Below, one piece after another: positions 3,706-55,743 of a DNA stretch of 55,743 bases. The notes beneath the pieces are model-generated. The model made no database searches and was not told the DNA's origin. It was given only the letters and a program-made list of their open reading frames with translations. The position numbers were made by a program, and so were the translations under genes. Every line of letters begins with the position of its first letter. Position 1 is the stretch's first letter. The stretch is from a virus: positions 1 through 55,743 of IMG/VR virus record IMGVR_UViG_3300046167_000092; one strand, 5' to 3'.

Positions 3706-4082
3706 ATATTTCCTGTGAACTCAATAGTTCGGTTGAAGCAGTCAGCGACATTGCTGATTGCCCCAATAAGCTTAGAGCCTGTTTTTGGAGTTGTCAAGAA
3801 GGAAAGCACAGGTAAACATGTTCTAACAGGCATACATGTAAATACAAACTTTATGTGATTTCTAATGTAAATTATTTACATGTTTATGCGTAAAGTTTCG
3901 CCCTGCCATCAAGGGTCAGATGTAAAGATTTTACACACACAGCACATGTAAAGCTTACGTGTAGGCGATTTGGAACTGCTGGTCTACTTTTTTGAGGTCA
4001 GATTTAGGGCAAAATAAATTATCACGCCTGTTGTCGCAGGAAGAATATTATTCTACGCAGGACAATCGCACATGTAATTAAT
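3706..4082. promoter_or_regulatory. Regulatory region with repeated ACATGTAAA motifs
   Basis: No gene is seen in this 377-base stretch. The motif ACATGTAAA, its reverse TTTACATGT, or close variants occur repeatedly, near 3813, 3832, 3863-3880, 3920 and 3947, with a further variant near 4071. Related copies form the inverted repeat at 3296-3332. GATGTAAAG-AT-TTTACAC and ATGTAAATTATTTACAT are local palindromes built from it. Iterons, or operators for an early regulator, are the likeliest reading. The region is largely conserved at 54474-54850. Confidence 0.6.
3757..3797 (-). promoter_or_regulatory. Sigma70-type promoter with GGGCAAT element
   Basis: TTGACA (3792-3797 on the minus strand) is followed after 17 bases by a weak TAAGCT, and GGGCAAT (3757-3763) lies downstream, 28 bases below the -35. 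It should drive the gene at 3349-3705. The -10 is poor, so an activator may be needed. Confidence 0.55.
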
Positions 4083-4112
4083 TTGCAATTTTCGGAAAAC
4101 TGTGAGTACAAT
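4083..4112 (+). promoter_or_regulatory. Probable sigma70 promoter for the short rightward transcript
   Basis: TTGCAA (4083-4088) and TACAAT (4107-4112) are separated by 18 bases. Both boxes are unchanged in the right copy (54852-54881). Transcription would start near 4119 and end at the terminator 4470-4493, giving an RNA of about 370 bases. Confidence 0.6.
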
Positions 4113-4232
4113 GTTTCGGCAAATCAATGTCGGTTTGCACAAATAGTCCCTTGGACTAAGGATGTTTTTATCAAAAATTCAACTCAAACTACGTTTACTC
4201 CTACTAACCCTAAAGCTAAAGCTTCCTACGGA

Positions 4233-4448
4233 ATGGTCAGAAAGATTGCTTCGCAGTTCAGCAAAGCTGAGAAGTGTCCAAAGGACATCAAATGGGGAAC
4301 TATTCATGGTCATTTCTTACAGAAATTAAATGACACAAAGTCTCCATTGACCCAAGGTCAAGTAGTTAAAATCTTAGCTATGAAGTCCTTGCCTTCGGCA
4401 GACTTGAAGGCTATGCGTTCTTACAAGAAACTTGTAAGTCTTGCATAG
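4233..4448 (+). CDS. Small basic protein of unknown function (left copy), start uncertain
   Basis: From this Met the frame encodes 71 residues (MVRKIASQFSKAEKCPKDIK...), basic and probably helical. The frame is open further upstream in this copy to a TTG at 4083. That TTG lies inside the -35 box, and the right copy has an in-frame stop (TAA at 54909-54911) after ...CRFA, so the long form is not conserved. No strong SD precedes 4233. Nucleotide identity between the copies is nearly complete, so an RNA function is also possible. It could be a small regulator transcribed from 4083-4112. No family recognised. Confidence 0.5.
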   Translation: MVRKIASQFSKAEKCPKDIKWGTIHGHFLQKLNDTKSPLTQGQVVKILAMKSLPSADLKAMRSYKKLVSLA

Positions 4449-4469
4449 TAGCTAAAGCTACTCACTAAG

Positions 4470-4493
4470 AAGACCCTTCGGGGTCTTTTTTTT
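4470..4493 (+). terminator. Rho-independent terminator
   Basis: AAGACCC, a TTCG tetraloop and GGGTCTT form a 7-bp stem followed by eight T's. It ends the rightward transcript carrying the gene at 4233-4448. The same element stands at 55239-55262. Confidence 0.92.
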
Positions 4494-4957
4494 GGCCTAA
4501 AATAACCTAAAGTCTTTAAAAGACTTCAACACATACAGAGACTTTGAAAGTCTCCCTAATAGGCCGTCAATTGTTTTCAGCACCCAAATCATAGATTTGT
4601 CCTACGGAAACACACATACACCCTACACAGCATAACAAGTTCACAGGAAGCTTTATAAGCTTTCCTAGGCTCTTGTTTACATGAGGTGAAGGTTATCATC
4701 AACCATAGGTTGAAAAGCTTTGTAATGGCTTTAGAATGCTGTATAGCTTGGTAAACTCTGTAGAGTTTGTAGAGTTATAGAATAGACGTATATTTTCTAT
4801 GAAAATCTTGGAAACTTCAGAGAACTCTTAAGCCTTTGGCTTAGACTTGGTAGATTTTGGTAAGTTCTGTAGAGTCTTTAAAGTCTAGTAAGACTTTAAG
4901 TTGGGAATAATTTCATTAGCTTGGTAAACTCTATAGAGTTTAGTAGGGGAGGCAAGA

Positions 4958-4984
4958 CCCACCCACCCCCACCCATATATATAT
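4958..4984 (-). other. G-quadruplex motif next to an AT run
   Basis: On the minus strand the bases 4974-4958 read GGGTGGGGGTGGGTGGG, four G-tracts with single-base loops, a pattern known to form very stable parallel quadruplexes. It is followed on the plus strand by alternating AT (4975-4984). The right end of the contig (55743) stops exactly at the last base of this motif. It lies downstream of the leftward promoter at 5148-5176, so the RNA from there would carry the G-rich strand. Confidence 0.75.
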
Positions 4985-5060
4985 ACTAATGCTTATACAT
5001 TTTTAGGGAATTTGAGTTGGAAACTTCACAGAGCTTTTCTCTCTTTATAGAGAGCTAATT

Positions 5061-5147: not shown

Positions 5148-5176
5148 ATTATATAGTTCAGAATCACTTTTGTCAA
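5148..5176 (-). promoter_or_regulatory. Perfect consensus sigma70 promoter, leftward
   Basis: On the minus strand TTGACA (5171-5176), 17 bases and TATAAT (5148-5153) match consensus exactly. The transcript would start near 5141 and run through the 19-bp repeat, the quadruplex and the hairpin array, antisense to 4233-4448. The first leftward gene lies more than 1.4 kb away. It may make a long structured RNA. Confidence 0.8.
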
Positions 5177-5202: not shown

Positions 5203-5231
5203 TTGACAAACTCTATATAAACCTCTATAAT
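5203..5231 (+). promoter_or_regulatory. Perfect consensus sigma70 promoter for the packaging and late operon
   Basis: TTGACA (5203-5208), a 17-base spacer and TATAAT (5226-5231) match consensus exactly. The expected first base of the RNA, seven bases on, is the A of the ATG at 5238, so the message is probably leaderless. Its -35 box lies 26 bases from that of the opposite promoter. Confidence 0.85.
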
Positions 5232-5237
5232 ATCCGT

Positions 5238-5660
5238 ATGTCTTTACCATCAACAACTAAAAGAAAACTGACAGAAAAACAAGAGAACTTCCTTAATAAT
5301 CTCATAGAGACTAAAGGAAACCTCAAACTTTCAGCCGAACTTGCAGGGTATTCAGGCAATCACTACCAAGTTATACAATCACTTAAACAGGAAATAGTAG
5401 ATTTAGCCAGTGACGTACTTGCAAGGGAAGCCCCTTTAGCTGCCTTTAAACTTGTTGAGGTCTTACAGAGTGACAAAGCATTGCCACAAGCAAATGTAAA
5501 GTTACAAGCTGCACAGACCATTCTAGATAGAGTTGGTTTAGGTAAGAAAGAAAGATTAGATGTGAATCATAATGTTAGTGGTGGTATTTTTATACTACCT
5601 GAAAAACAAACAATTGATGTTGAAGCAGAGGATGCTAGTTATGAAACTTTGGATAACTGA
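5238..5660 (+). CDS. terS: Terminase small subunit
   Basis: A 140-residue protein with an N-terminal helix-turn-helix-like region typical of phage small terminases: LTEKQENFLNNLIETKGNLK then SAELAGYS (residues 11-40). A helical oligomerisation part (about 55-105) and an acidic tail follow. It should bind the packaging site and hand DNA to the large subunit at 6801-8594. It starts at the predicted transcription start, so the mRNA is probably leaderless; no SD stands before the ATG. Its 3' end overlaps the next gene by 20 bases. Assignment rests on the motif pattern plus its position upstream of terL. Confidence 0.8.
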   Translation: MSLPSTTKRKLTEKQENFLNNLIETKGNLKLSAELAGYSGNHYQVIQSLKQEIVDLASDVLAREAPLAAFKLVEVLQSDKALPQANVKLQAAQTILDRVGLGKKERLDVNHNVSGGIFILPEKQTIDVEAEDASYETLDN

Positions 5661-37561: not shown

Positions 37562-39301
37562 ATGAAGTGGTCAATAGGTTTATTATCTTTACTTACAATT
37601 CCTTTACTTTATAACGCCCTTCCATTAGAAGTCTTGAGATTAAAAACTTTTGATGCTGTTGTAACTACACCAGAGCCTACCAGATATTTTACAATCCTCA
37701 ACATAGACGAACAATTCCTAGATGAACAGGGTGGATATCCTTTGCCTAGAGAAACACTTGCAAAGATTCACAATGATATAATAAACGCTGGTGCTTTAGG
37801 TGTTGGTTGGGTTATGTTATTCCCACATGCAGATAGACTAGGTGGAGATGATGAGTTTTCTAAAGCTTTACAAAGCTCTCCAAGTGTCATAGCCATGCCT
37901 GAAGTAAACAATGGTAACTATCCAAAGACAGTTGGTACAGTTATCAAAGGTCCAATAGTATCTTTACCAAAAGCTCAAGGCTTTTTAGAGAACATAGAGC
38001 CTTTAAAACAATCAGCTAATCAAGGTGCTATCTCTGCACCAGTAGACGTAGATAATTTAGTAAGGAGAATACCTCTACTACAGCAAACTAATAATGGGTG
38101 GGTCGCTTCGTTTGGAACGGAAGTTTTAAAAATACTAGGAGGTGGTCGAACTTATCAGATTGTCACAAATCTGAATGGAATAGAACAGGTTAGAGTGAGA
38201 GGCATTCCACCCATTGCCACAGATAGTCTTGGTCGTAAATGGATTAGTTGGGTTGATACACCACAGACTACACTAGAAGAATTAGATGTAGCTAATAAGT
38301 TTGTGTTCGTAGGATTCACAGCTAAAGGAATATCTCCACAACTCGCAACACCCGTAGGTTTACTAGAGCCACATAAAATACAAGCAGCTTTATCAGAAAG
38401 TATGTTAATGGATACTCCTTACATACCTGACTATAGATTGTTTGTTGAGCTATTACTATTATGCCTCTCAGGCTTACTGACAGCTCTTCTAATAGCACGT
38501 TTAGGTATTACATGGGGAATCGTATCAGTTATAATTTTAATGTCTTCTGTGGCTTATGTTGGATACAATGTCATACAAAAGAACATACTCATAGATGTTA
38601 CATGGTCTTTAATAAGTATGACACTTATTGCTACCCTACAATTCTATTTAAACTTTAGAACACAATTCAAGCTAAGACAACTTATCAAGAAACAATTTGA
38701 GCATTACCTTGACCCAAGGCAAGTAAAACAACTACAAGATAATCCTGAACTCCTGAAGTTAGGAGGAGAACGAAGACGTTGTACGTTTTTATTTACAGAT
38801 GTGCGTGGGTTTACAAGCTTGTCAGAGACTCTTGAACCCGAACAAGTTACAGAAATAATGAATAAGGCTCTAACTATACAAGCTAATGCAGTTAAAGAGT
38901 ATGGTGGTATGGTAGATAAGTATATAGGAGATGCAATGATGGCTATCTTTAATGCACCTATAGATTTAGAACAACACGAAACCAAAGCAATTCAAACAGC
39001 CTTGAAAATAAAACAAGATATGGCTGAAGCCGATTTAGGAATAGACATAGGTATAGGGATAAACACAGGAGAAGCTGTAATAGGTAATATGGGAAGTGAT
39101 TCACGATTTGATTACTCTGCAATTGGGGATGCTGTTAATCTTGCAGCTAGATTAGAAAGCTCTACTAAAGAATTAGGAGAGGATATAGTAATAGGATATA
39201 ACACTGCAATTGAGAGTGCTATATCCTTAAAACTTTTAAAGTCTATACATGTAAAGGGTAAAGAGAACAAGGTTCAAACATTTACTATTTCTCAGTCATA
39301 A
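37562..39301 (+). CDS. Membrane CHASE2-domain class III adenylate cyclase
   Basis: A 579-residue protein that should make cAMP. A first membrane helix (about 4-20), a periplasmic CHASE2 sensor (about 25-290), three membrane helices (about 293-364), a linker helix, then a cyclase domain (about 400-579). Metal Asp413 (FTDVRGF) and Asp457 (YIGDAMMAIF), adenine-contact Lys453, and transition-state Asn526/Arg530 (GDAVNLAARLE) are all kept. Ser519 stands where bacterial adenylate cyclases have Thr/Ser and guanylate cyclases do not, so ATP is the likely substrate. It is an intact enzyme by inspection. Class III cyclases are unusual in phages. It is the last gene of the operon and its end overlaps that of an opposite-strand gene. 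Confidence 0.93.
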   Translation: MKWSIGLLSLLTIPLLYNALPLEVLRLKTFDAVVTTPEPTRYFTILNIDEQFLDEQGGYPLPRETLAKIHNDIINAGALGVGWVMLFPHADRLGGDDEFSKALQSSPSVIAMPEVNNGNYPKTVGTVIKGPIVSLPKAQGFLENIEPLKQSANQGAISAPVDVDNLVRRIPLLQQTNNGWVASFGTEVLKILGGGRTYQIVTNLNGIEQVRVRGIPPIATDSLGRKWISWVDTPQTTLEELDVANKFVFVGFTAKGISPQLATPVGLLEPHKIQAALSESMLMDTPYIPDYRLFVELLLLCLSGLLTALLIARLGITWGIVSVIILMSSVAYVGYNVIQKNILIDVTWSLISMTLIATLQFYLNFRTQFKLRQLIKKQFEHYLDPRQVKQLQDNPELLKLGGERRRCTFLFTDVRGFTSLSETLEPEQVTEIMNKALTIQANAVKEYGGMVDKYIGDAMMAIFNAPIDLEQHETKAIQTALKIKQDMAEADLGIDIGIGINTGEAVIGNMGSDSRFDYSAIGDAVNLAARLESSTKELGEDIVIGYNTAIESAISLKLLKSIHVKGKENKVQTFTISQS

Positions 39302-44209: not shown

Positions 44210-44615
44210 TTTCTGCTTCCTTGAATGCTTTAATTACATCCGATGAGAATAGTTTTTGTAGATTAACAAGAAACATTCTACTTGCTTTATGGTCTCCACC
44301 ACATACAGTTTTAAACGTATCCAGTTTATCTACTATTGTTTTAAGTACATCTGTTTTAAATACCAATGTGCAGAACTCGTTGTCACCTACACATAAATTA
44401 TGAAACCAATAATCAGATTCAGTAGCTCTTATTCCTGAAGGCTTACCCCATGATTCATATTCTATACAAATGTTTCCAGACTTTTGCCATAAATCTTTTT
44501 CAGATTTAACTTCTATTTTTTTATTGGTCATCATGTCTGCTATTTTTTCTTCTCTTATTGTACCATAAGCTAAGTCAATGTCAAATTTCTTTCTGTTTTC
44601 TTTAGTGGGTTTCAT
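44187..44615 (-). CDS. Possible second PD-(D/E)XK-type nuclease
   Basis: A 142-residue protein. DIDLAYGTIREEKIADMMTN leads to KIEVKSEKDLW (Glu and Lys of a possible E-x-K site) and ICIEYESWGKPSGIRATESD. This order (Asp...Glu-Val-Lys...Glu-Tyr-x-Ser) is like small phage endonucleases of the restriction-enzyme fold. It sits between polymerase and the Cas4-like nuclease with overlaps on both sides. Motif-level evidence only. Confidence 0.62.
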   Translation of the reverse strand: MKPTKENRKKFDIDLAYGTIREEKIADMMTNKKIEVKSEKDLWQKSGNICIEYESWGKPSGIRATESDYWFHNLCVGDNEFCTLVFKTDVLKTIVDKLDTFKTVCGGDHKASRMFLVNLQKLFSSDVIKAFKEAENAKEKTK

Positions 44616-46339
44616 ACCAGCTGTCTCCTATTTTATATTCGCCTGTTAAAGGACAACGCATATTGTAATGTTGTCCCGCTTTTTCTATTGCTTCTACACC
44701 TAACCTACCTACAAAGTCTGCTTGTTTTTCAAGCACTTGTATCTGCCACTCATCATGAATGTTAGCTACAAACTTTGCATCTAAGCCGTTAAGTCTTATA
44801 TTATCTTCAAGGATAACCAATGCTTTCTTCATTGCTATTGCACCACCACCCTGTAATAAAGTGTTTAATGCTGCATGTTTATGTCGTAGTAGAATCTTAC
44901 GACCATCTAAGCCCTTTGAGGTAGCTCTTCTCCGAAGCTCTGTCAACTCGTTCCTTAAGAGTTCTAAGTGTTGGTAGACCAGTAAGAAAGCGTTCTCGCA
45001 ATCGCTTACCGTCTGCTCTATTTCCTTTAATGATGCTTCCAATTTTTTCATCTCCTGCCCCGTAAATGAGTGCATAGATGAAAGTTTTTGCCTCATCTCT
45101 TGATTTAAGTCCAGCAAACTGTTGGTTAGCTGTGTGAATGTCTCCGTTGATAATTTCATTTATGTAATCCTCGTCAGCCATATAGTGTGCTAACAGTCTA
45201 AGTTCTAATCCACTTGCATCTATACCTACAAGTTTGTAACCTTTTGGTACAACCCAACAAGACCTACACTCTTTTCCATAAGGACTGTAAACAGCAGGTA
45301 CTTGTGCCATGTTAGGACTTCTGTGTGCCATTCGACCTGTGATAGCACCAGTACAAATGACTGACCCATGCACTCTACCATCGTCTTCATGCACTGCATC
45401 TATCCAAGAATGTACTTGGGCTAATCGTTTCTGATACAGTAAGAAGTCTGCTATAAGTTGTGCTTCTTTTATATGAGTAATCTTTTTAAGAGTATTCTCA
45501 TCGACAATAGCTTGACCTGTAGGTGTAAATTTATTAGGCTTCCAACCAAGTTCTTGTAGTCTTTGTCCTATTTGTTTCCTAGAACCTAGGTTAAATTCTT
45601 GAAGTGTCTTTCTCATGAAAGGTTTTTGTTCAAGCGTACCATCTATTATATCAGAGTACTCCTGTTCTGTCAATCCCTGTTTAGAAAGTTTACCATCTTT
45701 TTTTAGTTTAGGTTTTACTATTTTGTCATCAATCCATATTGGCTTGAATGTTTCGTGTACTTTATCTTCTGTTTCTTTTAGCTTACAACTTAACTCTGAA
45801 GCTAAAAACATTGCTTGTTCATCATTAAAAAGAAACCCATTTTGTTTTTGTTCTTCAAGAATATGTGTAACTTTATGTTCTAACTCTATACATTCTTTTG
45901 AAAAACCTAAAGATTCTTTTTTCAAATAATTAAATAATTTATAATTTATATCTACATCTCTTTCACAATAAGATAACATCTCTTCTGTAAAGGCAGACCA
46001 CTCAGGAGAATCTTTCTTAGGTAATCCTAGTTTGTAACCCCACTTAGCTATGCTGTGTCCACCTTCTCTTGTAGGGTTTAGTAGCCTAGATAATACAAGG
46101 GTGTCTATAACTTTATCTGAATTGTATAAGTCTACACCAGTAAGCTTTTTAATTACAGGTATATCATAACCTAAGATGTTATGTCCTATAAGCCTGTCTG
46201 CTTTTTGTAAGAACTTTATGCCCTCGTCAAGGGTGTCTTCGTAGAAGTGATAGAACTTACCGTGTTCATCTTGTGCTACGAGACACCATATAACTGAAGG
46301 ATTTAGTCCGTCTGTTTCTATGTCAAATACTAATTGCAT
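44602..46339 (-). CDS. DNA polymerase, family A (T7-like), split by a frameshift
   Basis: It copies phage DNA. The first frame (46339 to 44897) holds the proofreading site (FDIETDGLN, Asp5/Glu7), palm motif A (GIDASGLELRLLAHYM) and motif B (AKTFIYALIYGAG), ending SYLKGLRWS. The second, entered around 44910, carries GLDGRKILLRHKHAALNTL and palm motif C (IHDEWQ). T7 reads straight through YIKGLDGR-like residues there, so one extra base in the AAAGGG run splits the gene. Either the consensus is wrong or a +1 or -2 shift is needed, because motif C is essential. Joined length would be about 578 residues. Confidence 0.92.
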
Positions 46340-54473: not shown

Positions 54474-54850
54474 ATATTTCCTGTGAACTCAATAGTTCGG
54501 TTGAAGCAGTCAGCGACATTGCTGATTTGCCCAACTAGTTTAGAGCCTGTTTTTGAAGTTGTCAAGGAGGAACTGTGTGCGTAAACATGTTCTAACAGGC
54601 ACATGTATAAATACAAACTTTATGTGATTTCTGATGTAAATTATTTACATGTTTATGCGTAAAGTTTCGCCCTGCCATCAAGGGTCAGATGTAAAGATTT
54701 TACACACACAGCACATGTAAAGCTTACGTGTAGGCGATTTGGAACTGCTGGTCTACTTTTTTGAGGTCAGATTTAGGGCAAAATAAATTATCACGCCTGT
54801 TGTCGCAGGAAGAATATTATTCTACGCAGGACAATCGCACATGTAATTAA
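54474..54850. promoter_or_regulatory. Regulatory region with ACATGTAAA motifs (right copy)
   Basis: Counterpart of 3706-4082, with no gene. TTGACA at 54560-54565 (minus) and the GGGCAAAT variant recall the promoter at 3757-3797. The motifs near 54600, 54633-54650, 54688 and 54714 are kept. The part nearest the gene (54520-54610) has several changes and the rest very few. Confidence 0.55.
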
Positions 54851-54851
54851 T

Positions 54852-54881
54852 TTGCAATTTTCGGAAAACTGTGAGTACAAT
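54852..54881 (+). promoter_or_regulatory. Probable sigma70 promoter (right copy)
   Basis: TTGCAA, 18 bases and TACAAT, identical to 4083-4112. Confidence 0.58.
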
Positions 54882-55001
54882 GTTTCGGCAAATCAATGTC
54901 GGTTTGCATAAATAGTCCCTTGGACTAAGGATGTTTTTATCAAAAATTCAACTCAAACTACGTTTACTCCTACTAACCCTAAAGCTAAAGCTTCCTACGG
55001 A

Positions 55002-55217
55002 ATGGTCAGAAAGATTGCTTCGCAGTTCAGCAAAGCTGAGAAGTGTCCAAAGGACATCAAATGGGGAACAATTCATGGTCATTTCTTACAGAAATTAAAT
55101 GACACAAAGTCTCCATTGACCCAAGGTCAAGTAGTTAAAATCTTAGCTATGAAGTCCTTGCCTTCGGCAGACTTGAAGGCTATGCGTTCTTACAAGAAAC
55201 TTGTAAGTCTTGCATAG
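55002..55217 (+). CDS. Small basic protein (right copy), start uncertain
   Basis: 71 residues from MVRKIASQFSKAEKCPKDIK, with the same protein as 4233-4448. A single base change (C to T at 54909) makes an in-frame stop upstream, so any start must lie after it. No strong SD is seen before the Met. Confidence 0.5.
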   Translation: MVRKIASQFSKAEKCPKDIKWGTIHGHFLQKLNDTKSPLTQGQVVKILAMKSLPSADLKAMRSYKKLVSLA

Positions 55218-55238
55218 TAGCTAAAGCTACTCACTAAG

Positions 55239-55262
55239 AAGACCCTTCGGGGTCTTTTTTTT
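55239..55262 (+). terminator. Rho-independent terminator (right copy)
   Basis: Same stem, TTCG loop and T-run as at 4470-4493. Confidence 0.92.
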
Positions 55263-55743
55263 GGCCTAAAATAACCTAAAGTCTTTAAAAGACTTCAACA
55301 CATACAGAGACTTTGAAAGTCTCCCTAATAGGCCGTCAATTGTTTTCAGCACCCAAATCATAGATTTGTCCTACGGAAACACACATACACCCTACACAGC
55401 ATAACAAGTTCACAGGAAGCTTTATAAGCTTTCCTAGGCTCTTGTTTACATGAGGTGAAGGTTATCATCAACCATAGGTTGAAAAGCTTTGTAATGGCTT
55501 TAGAATGCTGTATAGCTTGGTAAACTCTTTAGAGTTTGTAGAGTTATAGAATAGACGTATATTTTCTATGAAAATCTTGGAAACTTCAGAGAACTCTTAA
55601 GCCTTTGGCTTAGACTTGGTAGATTTTGGTAAGTTCTGTAGAGTCTTTAAAGTCTAGTAAGACTTTAAGTTGGGAATAATTTCATTAGCTTGGTAAACTC
55701 TATAGAGTTTAGTAGGGGAGGCAAGACCCACCCACCCCCACCC
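55263..55743. other. Hairpin array (right copy) to contig end
   Basis: No gene. It repeats the left array from 4494 to 4974 with very few changes; one, a T for G at 55529 in the loop of the hairpin matching 4753-4768, leaves the stem intact. It ends in the C-rich quadruplex motif at the last base of the window. Confidence 0.7.

Follow-up and report, generated by a model that had tools for sequence, protein, structure and literature searches.

A chain of perfect hairpins in a phage control region

What does a chain of short, perfect inverted repeats do between the early and late operons of a phage? The question is raised by an IMG/VR virus contig (IMGVR_UViG_3300046167_000092), whose 55,743 bases were analysed whole and are called the window here, and in which the initial annotation had pointed to a run of small hairpins at 4420-5054. 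The contig encodes TerL, an SU10-like portal, a coat protein, a family A DNA polymerase, a primase-helicase and a ribonucleotide reductase; by TerL, the isolates nearest to it are the Pelagibacter phages HTVC115P, 103P and 104P (64–66%). Judged from this protein content and these nearest isolates, it belongs to the HMO-2011-type podophages, a group reported to dominate and to be widespread in the ocean (PMC9038755). The window also encodes a 579-aa protein that combines a CHASE2 domain with one of the adenylate/guanylate cyclase type (37562-39301, plus strand), a phage-borne signalling cyclase present in most of the related phage genomes tested (58–70%, with 88% in one near relative). Two overlapping minus-strand ORFs (44602-45159 and 44897-46339) both match family A DNA polymerase, with the C-terminal part separate, through a split gene, a frameshift or a sequencing error. 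A repeat of about 5 kb is shared by the two ends of the contig (12-4974 and 50243-55743, identity climbing from 91% to 100%) and suggests a circular or redundant genome whose assembly drew on two strains.

Counting perfect, non-overlapping hairpins with arms of at least 6 bp and loops of 3–8 nt, we found 14 in 4420-5054, compared with 1.33 ± 1.08 in dinucleotide shuffles (maximum 4 among 500). This is the densest stretch and the sole peak of its kind in the genome, which averages 1.7 hairpins per 635 nt and reaches 5 per 635 nt at its next-highest peak outside the array. The region also folded far below shuffled sequences, both as RNA (z = -5.9 for the minus strand and -4.8 for the plus strand) and as DNA (z = -3.6). 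The chain is therefore confirmed as real: all the hairpins named in the initial annotation lie where it had placed them, and its claim of a density far beyond chance withstood the comparisons with shuffled sequence that it had proposed, of hairpin number as well as of folding on both strands. Its argument that most hairpins are preserved in a right-hand copy adds nothing, because that copy (54769-55743) is 100% identical to 4000-4974 over the hairpin stretch and looks like the assembly overlap of a genome of about 50.8 kb; it is no second witness.

As we delimit it, the array spans 4312-5054, with arms of 6–9 bp and loops of 3–4 nt, and its perfect hairpins start at 4312, 4347, 4420, 4447, 4470, 4510, 4538, 4585, 4648, 4699, 4753, 4792, 4829, 4878, 4925 and 5039. 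The initial description of this DNA as non-coding holds for part of it only, since the array runs leftward through a small plus-strand gene, ORF4083 (mechanical ORF 4083-4448 with a TTG start; conserved part 4149-4448, encoding a protein of about 95 aa). In the window, the hairpins at 4312, 4347 and 4420 fall within this gene, the last in its 3' end, and relatives have up to seven inside it; a further hairpin lies near its start (4144-4158). At about 4167 on the plus strand, the window and one relative (L019) read ATC-AAA-AAT, where most relatives have an ATG that starts ORF4083 (ATG-ACT-AAC or similar); the start codon of the window's copy may be a rare one or be located elsewhere. No Pfam or PHROG family matched the ORF4083 protein, and its AlphaFold model (pLDDT 81) had no fold match in the PDB or in a viral library. 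Weak tblastn matches to pelagiphage genes annotated as ArdA (E 0.4) were judged to be due to chance.

The hairpin at 4470-4487, followed by eight T, is an ordinary plus-strand intrinsic terminator of ORF4083 (4470-4496; AAGACCC-TTCG-GGGTCTT and a T run), whose stems in relatives differ in sequence yet are perfect. A clear U-run after the stem, looked for throughout as the sign of an array of intrinsic terminators, was found at this terminator only.

On its right, the array is bordered by a tract that is C-rich on the plus strand (4958-4974) and carries the G-quadruplex-capable GGGTGGGGGTGGGTGGG on the minus strand; ATATATATATA (4975-4985) adjoins it in the window and in nearly all array-bearing relatives. 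Across relatives, the C-rich tract with TATATATA lies at -216 to -370 of terS, and it also occurs in some relatives that have no array. Its polarity is reversed in HMO-2011 and in four contigs (L037, L068, L072 and L079). Further right, a leftward sigma-70 promoter (5148-5176, minus strand), described as consensus in the initial annotation, indeed matches it at 12 of 12 positions (TTGACA-17-TATAAT), and a rightward promoter of perfect sigma-70 consensus (5203-5231, plus strand) serves the late (terminase) operon, whose first gene is probably the terminase small subunit gene terS (5238-5660, plus strand). On the left, iteron-like repeats of the ACATGTAAA / TTTACGCATAAA family occupy 3800-4080, between the leftward early operon and ORF4083. 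Several ACATGTAAA-like copies are found at 3820-4075 of the window and TTTACGCATAAA-like repeats at the same place in relatives, which also share a conserved promoter-like block, TTGACA...TACTATGTAATGGC, in this region; these repeats are possible iterons or operator sites. The order of ORF4083, array, C-rich tract (followed by TATATA in nearly all), leftward promoter and terS promoter is constant in array-bearing loci.

The array is a lineage-stable trait that does not depend on the gene it overlaps

A TerL search yielded 80 related contigs. Hairpin density upstream of terS was high in nearly all of those with an ORF4083 homologue and mostly close to background in those without one, and among the window's genes only ORF4083 tracked the presence of the array in 11 genomes. 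A search with the ORF4083 alignment retrieved 52 viral contigs, 45 with the array and seven without. ORF4083 was accordingly rejected both as the gene that tracks the array and as its cause, since these seven relatives keep the gene without hairpins and the array of HMO-2011 runs through an unrelated gene. A single branch of the ORF4083 tree has all seven array-less homologues on one of its sides, which makes the array a lineage-stable trait. These sister phages keep the promoters, and some of them the C-tract, in the absence of hairpins; the array is thus dispensable for the phage group.

In 29 non-redundant array-bearing loci, the hairpin excess over shuffles was 6.0-fold in the 300 nt before ORF4083, 13.7-fold within ORF4083, 15.8-fold from there to the C-rich tract, and 2.2-fold from the tract to terS. 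The leftward promoter was kept in all 29 (the window included) with at most one mismatch, and the sequence at the presumed 5' end of the leftward RNA was conserved. In one subclade, the array also encloses a second small gene on the plus strand (at about 5668-5943 of L061), which itself contains a hairpin every 33 nt or so.

An array is also present in the cultured SAR116 phage HMO-2011, where about 25 hairpins lie between the late operon and the early one and run through the unrelated gene gp74; several HMO-2011-related contigs have arrays as well. An assembly artefact can thus be dismissed, as can a tie between the array and the ORF4083 protein. In the HMO-2011 genome (NC_021864), an AGTCCG/CGGACT stem occurs at three places of the array (53877, 54807 and 60). 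Near terS or the record end, no array was found in the cultured pelagiphages and roseophages HTVC103P, 104P, 115P, 033P, CRP-3, 207, 345, 603 and 738, and hairpins were weakly above chance in CRP-1 and CRP-9.

Stems are conserved in structure, and loops follow rules

The initial annotation had proposed to look in related phages for covariation and for loss of stems. The stems are kept there, and they covary by double Watson-Crick changes. In an alignment of 12 relatives, both sides were changed in 19 of 74 stem pairs; there were 42 cells with changes on both sides compared with 15.1 after shuffling, and the covariation score (0.156 vs 0.093 shuffled) was reached by none of 500 shuffles, slid controls also being lower. 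The covariation term of RNAalifold, computed over the whole alignment, was near zero. In pairwise comparisons, stems were mostly slower to change than linkers, in many cases by a factor of about two. Single stem changes dominated in close pairs, and Watson-Crick doubles accumulated with divergence. Single changes produced G-T in 76 cases, A-C in 72 and other pairs in 81, counts in which contig pairs share history, so that the events are not independent.

Unique perfect 7-bp stems numbered 115 in the window's clade against 6.5 expected (18-fold). Stems of the same length with one internal non-Watson-Crick pair stayed near expectation, whether G-T (10 vs 8.7), A-C (10 vs 9.1) or other (44 vs 35), and on neither strand does this clade accept G-U-like pairs more readily than mismatches. 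In the arrays of the HMO-2011 clade, a small sample of about 10 kb, G-T exceeded A-C by 9 to 1 and purine triloops lay on the early-gene coding strand in 21 cases vs 8; a strand-specific (plus-strand) role, RNA included, may apply in that clade.

Stem sequences differ within and between arrays, which share loop size and closing pair only. The length of the central gap peaks at 3 nt (26-fold excess), followed by 2 nt, mostly T..A and hence tetraloops, and 4 nt; the excess is only 3.5-fold at 0–1 nt and nil at 6–8 nt. Because the excess sits at gaps of 2–4 nt, this is a rule for hairpins and not for dyads. The closing pair is 5'C-G3' in 120 cases (30 expected) and 5'A-T3' in 14 (89 expected). 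GNA or ANA triloops on one strand or the other make up 77% (30% expected), with C-G/GNA strongly enriched across the array set without being universal, and in the window's clade they show no strand preference, being even on both strands. Loops of the GNRA or UUCG type are rare outside the terminator.

DNA hairpins, RNA or a by-product of mutation?

We propose, with a probability of roughly 40%, that the array is a set of selected short DNA hairpins in the control region from which the early and late operons of HMO-2011-type phages diverge, and that it is likely linked to replication. The element would be an inverted repeat with a Watson-Crick stem of 6–9 bp and a loop of 3–4 nt, whose sequence drifts without loss of either arm or of a stable loop, and its working form would most likely be DNA. 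Negative supercoiling is expected between diverging transcription units (twin-domain model). Under such supercoiling, or when single-stranded at a replication start, the repeats could extrude as hairpins or small cruciforms, which would hold the region open or give structural docking sites, most plausibly for the initiation or priming of replication at a nearby candidate origin, marked to the left by the iteron-like repeats and to the right by the promoter together with the G-rich/TATATA tract. We infer extrusion from the position of the array, which lies between diverging transcription units and adjoins both this tract and these repeats. A model based on an R-loop with fixed G-strand polarity was rejected, since the C/G tract is flipped in HMO-2011 and some relatives, the G-rich strand being the opposite one with respect to the late genes in HMO-2011 and in some relatives that have no array.

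Among the four readings offered by the initial annotation, the best fit is a replication origin, or more broadly a structure formed at the DNA level within the divergent control region. Stems made of Watson-Crick pairs alone and the loop rules point to DNA hairpins or cruciforms over one structured leftward RNA, because an RNA made from one strand would tolerate G-U on that strand and the window's clade shows otherwise. As a full explanation, a single new structured leftward RNA is also disfavoured by the lack of an Rfam match and by hairpins inside plus-strand coding sequence; RNase III sites meet the same objection, and sequence-specific protein sites are at odds with stems that share no common sequence. 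The preference for DNA has its counterpoints, as a need for RNA folding on both strands would likewise exclude G-U on either, and RNA folds of both strands were also significant. We infer all three elements of the proposal: that folding is of DNA rather than RNA, that the region is an origin, and that the hairpins have a binding partner.

A role of the hairpins as RNA is less likely. The RNA transcribed leftward from 5148-5176 and that made rightward over ORF4083 would be hairpin-studded leaders or antisense RNAs, whose stems block nucleases, pause the polymerase or bind a protein, and the need for stems on both strands would explain the missing G-U. The leftward promoter present at every array-bearing locus, the conserved 5' end of its presumed RNA, the folding of both strands far below shuffles and the strand biases of the HMO-2011 clade all speak for it. 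G-U pairs are ordinarily common in RNA helices, however, and the window's clade has no excess of G-T or A-C; triloops dominate at the expense of GNRA and UUCG, and neither Rfam 15 nor the covariation term of RNAalifold lends it support. Still less probable is an origin by mutation, in which fold-back template switching in an often single-stranded region perfects imperfect palindromes and leaves hairpins as a by-product with little function. This would yield perfect Watson-Crick arms, small loops and a lower net change of stems, would account for the coverage of coding and non-coding DNA and for the lack of a shared stem sequence, and would itself flag a region prone to be single-stranded, such as an origin. 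Yet near relatives differ mainly by single changes and doubles build up gradually with divergence, the array has sharp borders and occurs as one such peak per genome, and a sister group with the same gene and layout lacks it entirely.

Two further explanations appear very improbable. Double-stranded palindromic operator sites bound by a regulator of phage or host origin would suit a place between divergent promoters, and some stems are repeated, AAACTC-TTTA-GAGTTT occurring four times in L008 and L010; against them, no stem sequence is common to one array (L061), and the excess needs a gap of 2–4 nt and not dyad symmetry as such, as its low value at gaps of 0–1 nt indicates. Other phages are known to form hairpin intermediates at their genome ends, and the array lies directly upstream of terS, so a packaging or concatemer-junction signal in which hairpins are used to form genome ends is conceivable on similarly long odds; the HMO-2011 array, however, is flanked by the late and early operons and lies some 8–9 kb from the large terminase gene, no sign of a physical end was seen at the array, and array-less relatives package without it.

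Returning to DNA hairpins, we advance more tentatively a wider claim, that these sequence-divergent, structure-conserved arrays of 12–25 hairpins form a previously undescribed class of cis-element acting collectively as extruded DNA at the early/late control and replication-start region, with the codon choice of the overlapped coding sequence bent to keep the hairpins. As part of this claim, the extruded arrays may be a torsion sensor, an opener or a docking platform. The open-licence papers searched described no such phage array and nothing on non-coding elements at this junction. If the claim is true, a signal is encoded in structure instead of sequence through coding and non-coding DNA alike, which would be unusual, and since HMO-2011 has a named cultured host, Puniceispirillum marinum IMCC1322, the idea is testable at the bench.

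Comparison with known systems

Known families of hairpin or repeat elements each share part of these properties, and none matches the array in all of its defining features. Structured RNAs of the Rfam type resemble it in that their stems covary and lie in non-coding DNA downstream of a strong promoter, and the covariation across relatives described above is what such an RNA would show. They differ in that G-U is unfavoured on either strand in the window's clade and that the hairpins continue into a coding gene; searched with Rfam 15, the whole window gave no match at the gathering score. The ESAS elements of Cluster K mycobacteriophages are likewise inverted repeats repeated within one phage group, but they are imperfect 17-bp repeats with a consensus and variable spacers, placed before start codons (PMC3203893), whereas the array has no consensus and its loops are tiny.

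The early promoters of phage N4 offer short DNA hairpins in the early region of a podovirus, where extrusion at physiological supercoiling requires a C-G closing pair and, in a GNA triloop, both the G and the A (PMC4496689), a closure and loop that are enriched in the array. N4 has few promoters, with conserved hairpin sequences and a giant virion RNA polymerase, unlike the 12–25 divergent hairpins of the array, whose stems differ within and between loci. No RNA polymerase gene of the N4 type was found among the proteins tested, the large ORFs matching virion structural, tail-spike or endolysin families or nothing. In Streptomyces telomeres, several adjacent short palindromes fold as DNA hairpins, and in palindromes II and III a sheared G:A pair closes a GCA loop (PMC4513846); these palindromes belong to the 3' overhang at the end of a linear replicon with a terminal protein, whereas the array is internal, in a phage with a family A polymerase and a primase-helicase. 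The N4 promoter hairpins and the Streptomyces telomere palindromes are nonetheless the closest in working principle, and the array is set apart from both by the number of its hairpins, their spread through coding sequence and the freedom of their stems from any consensus.
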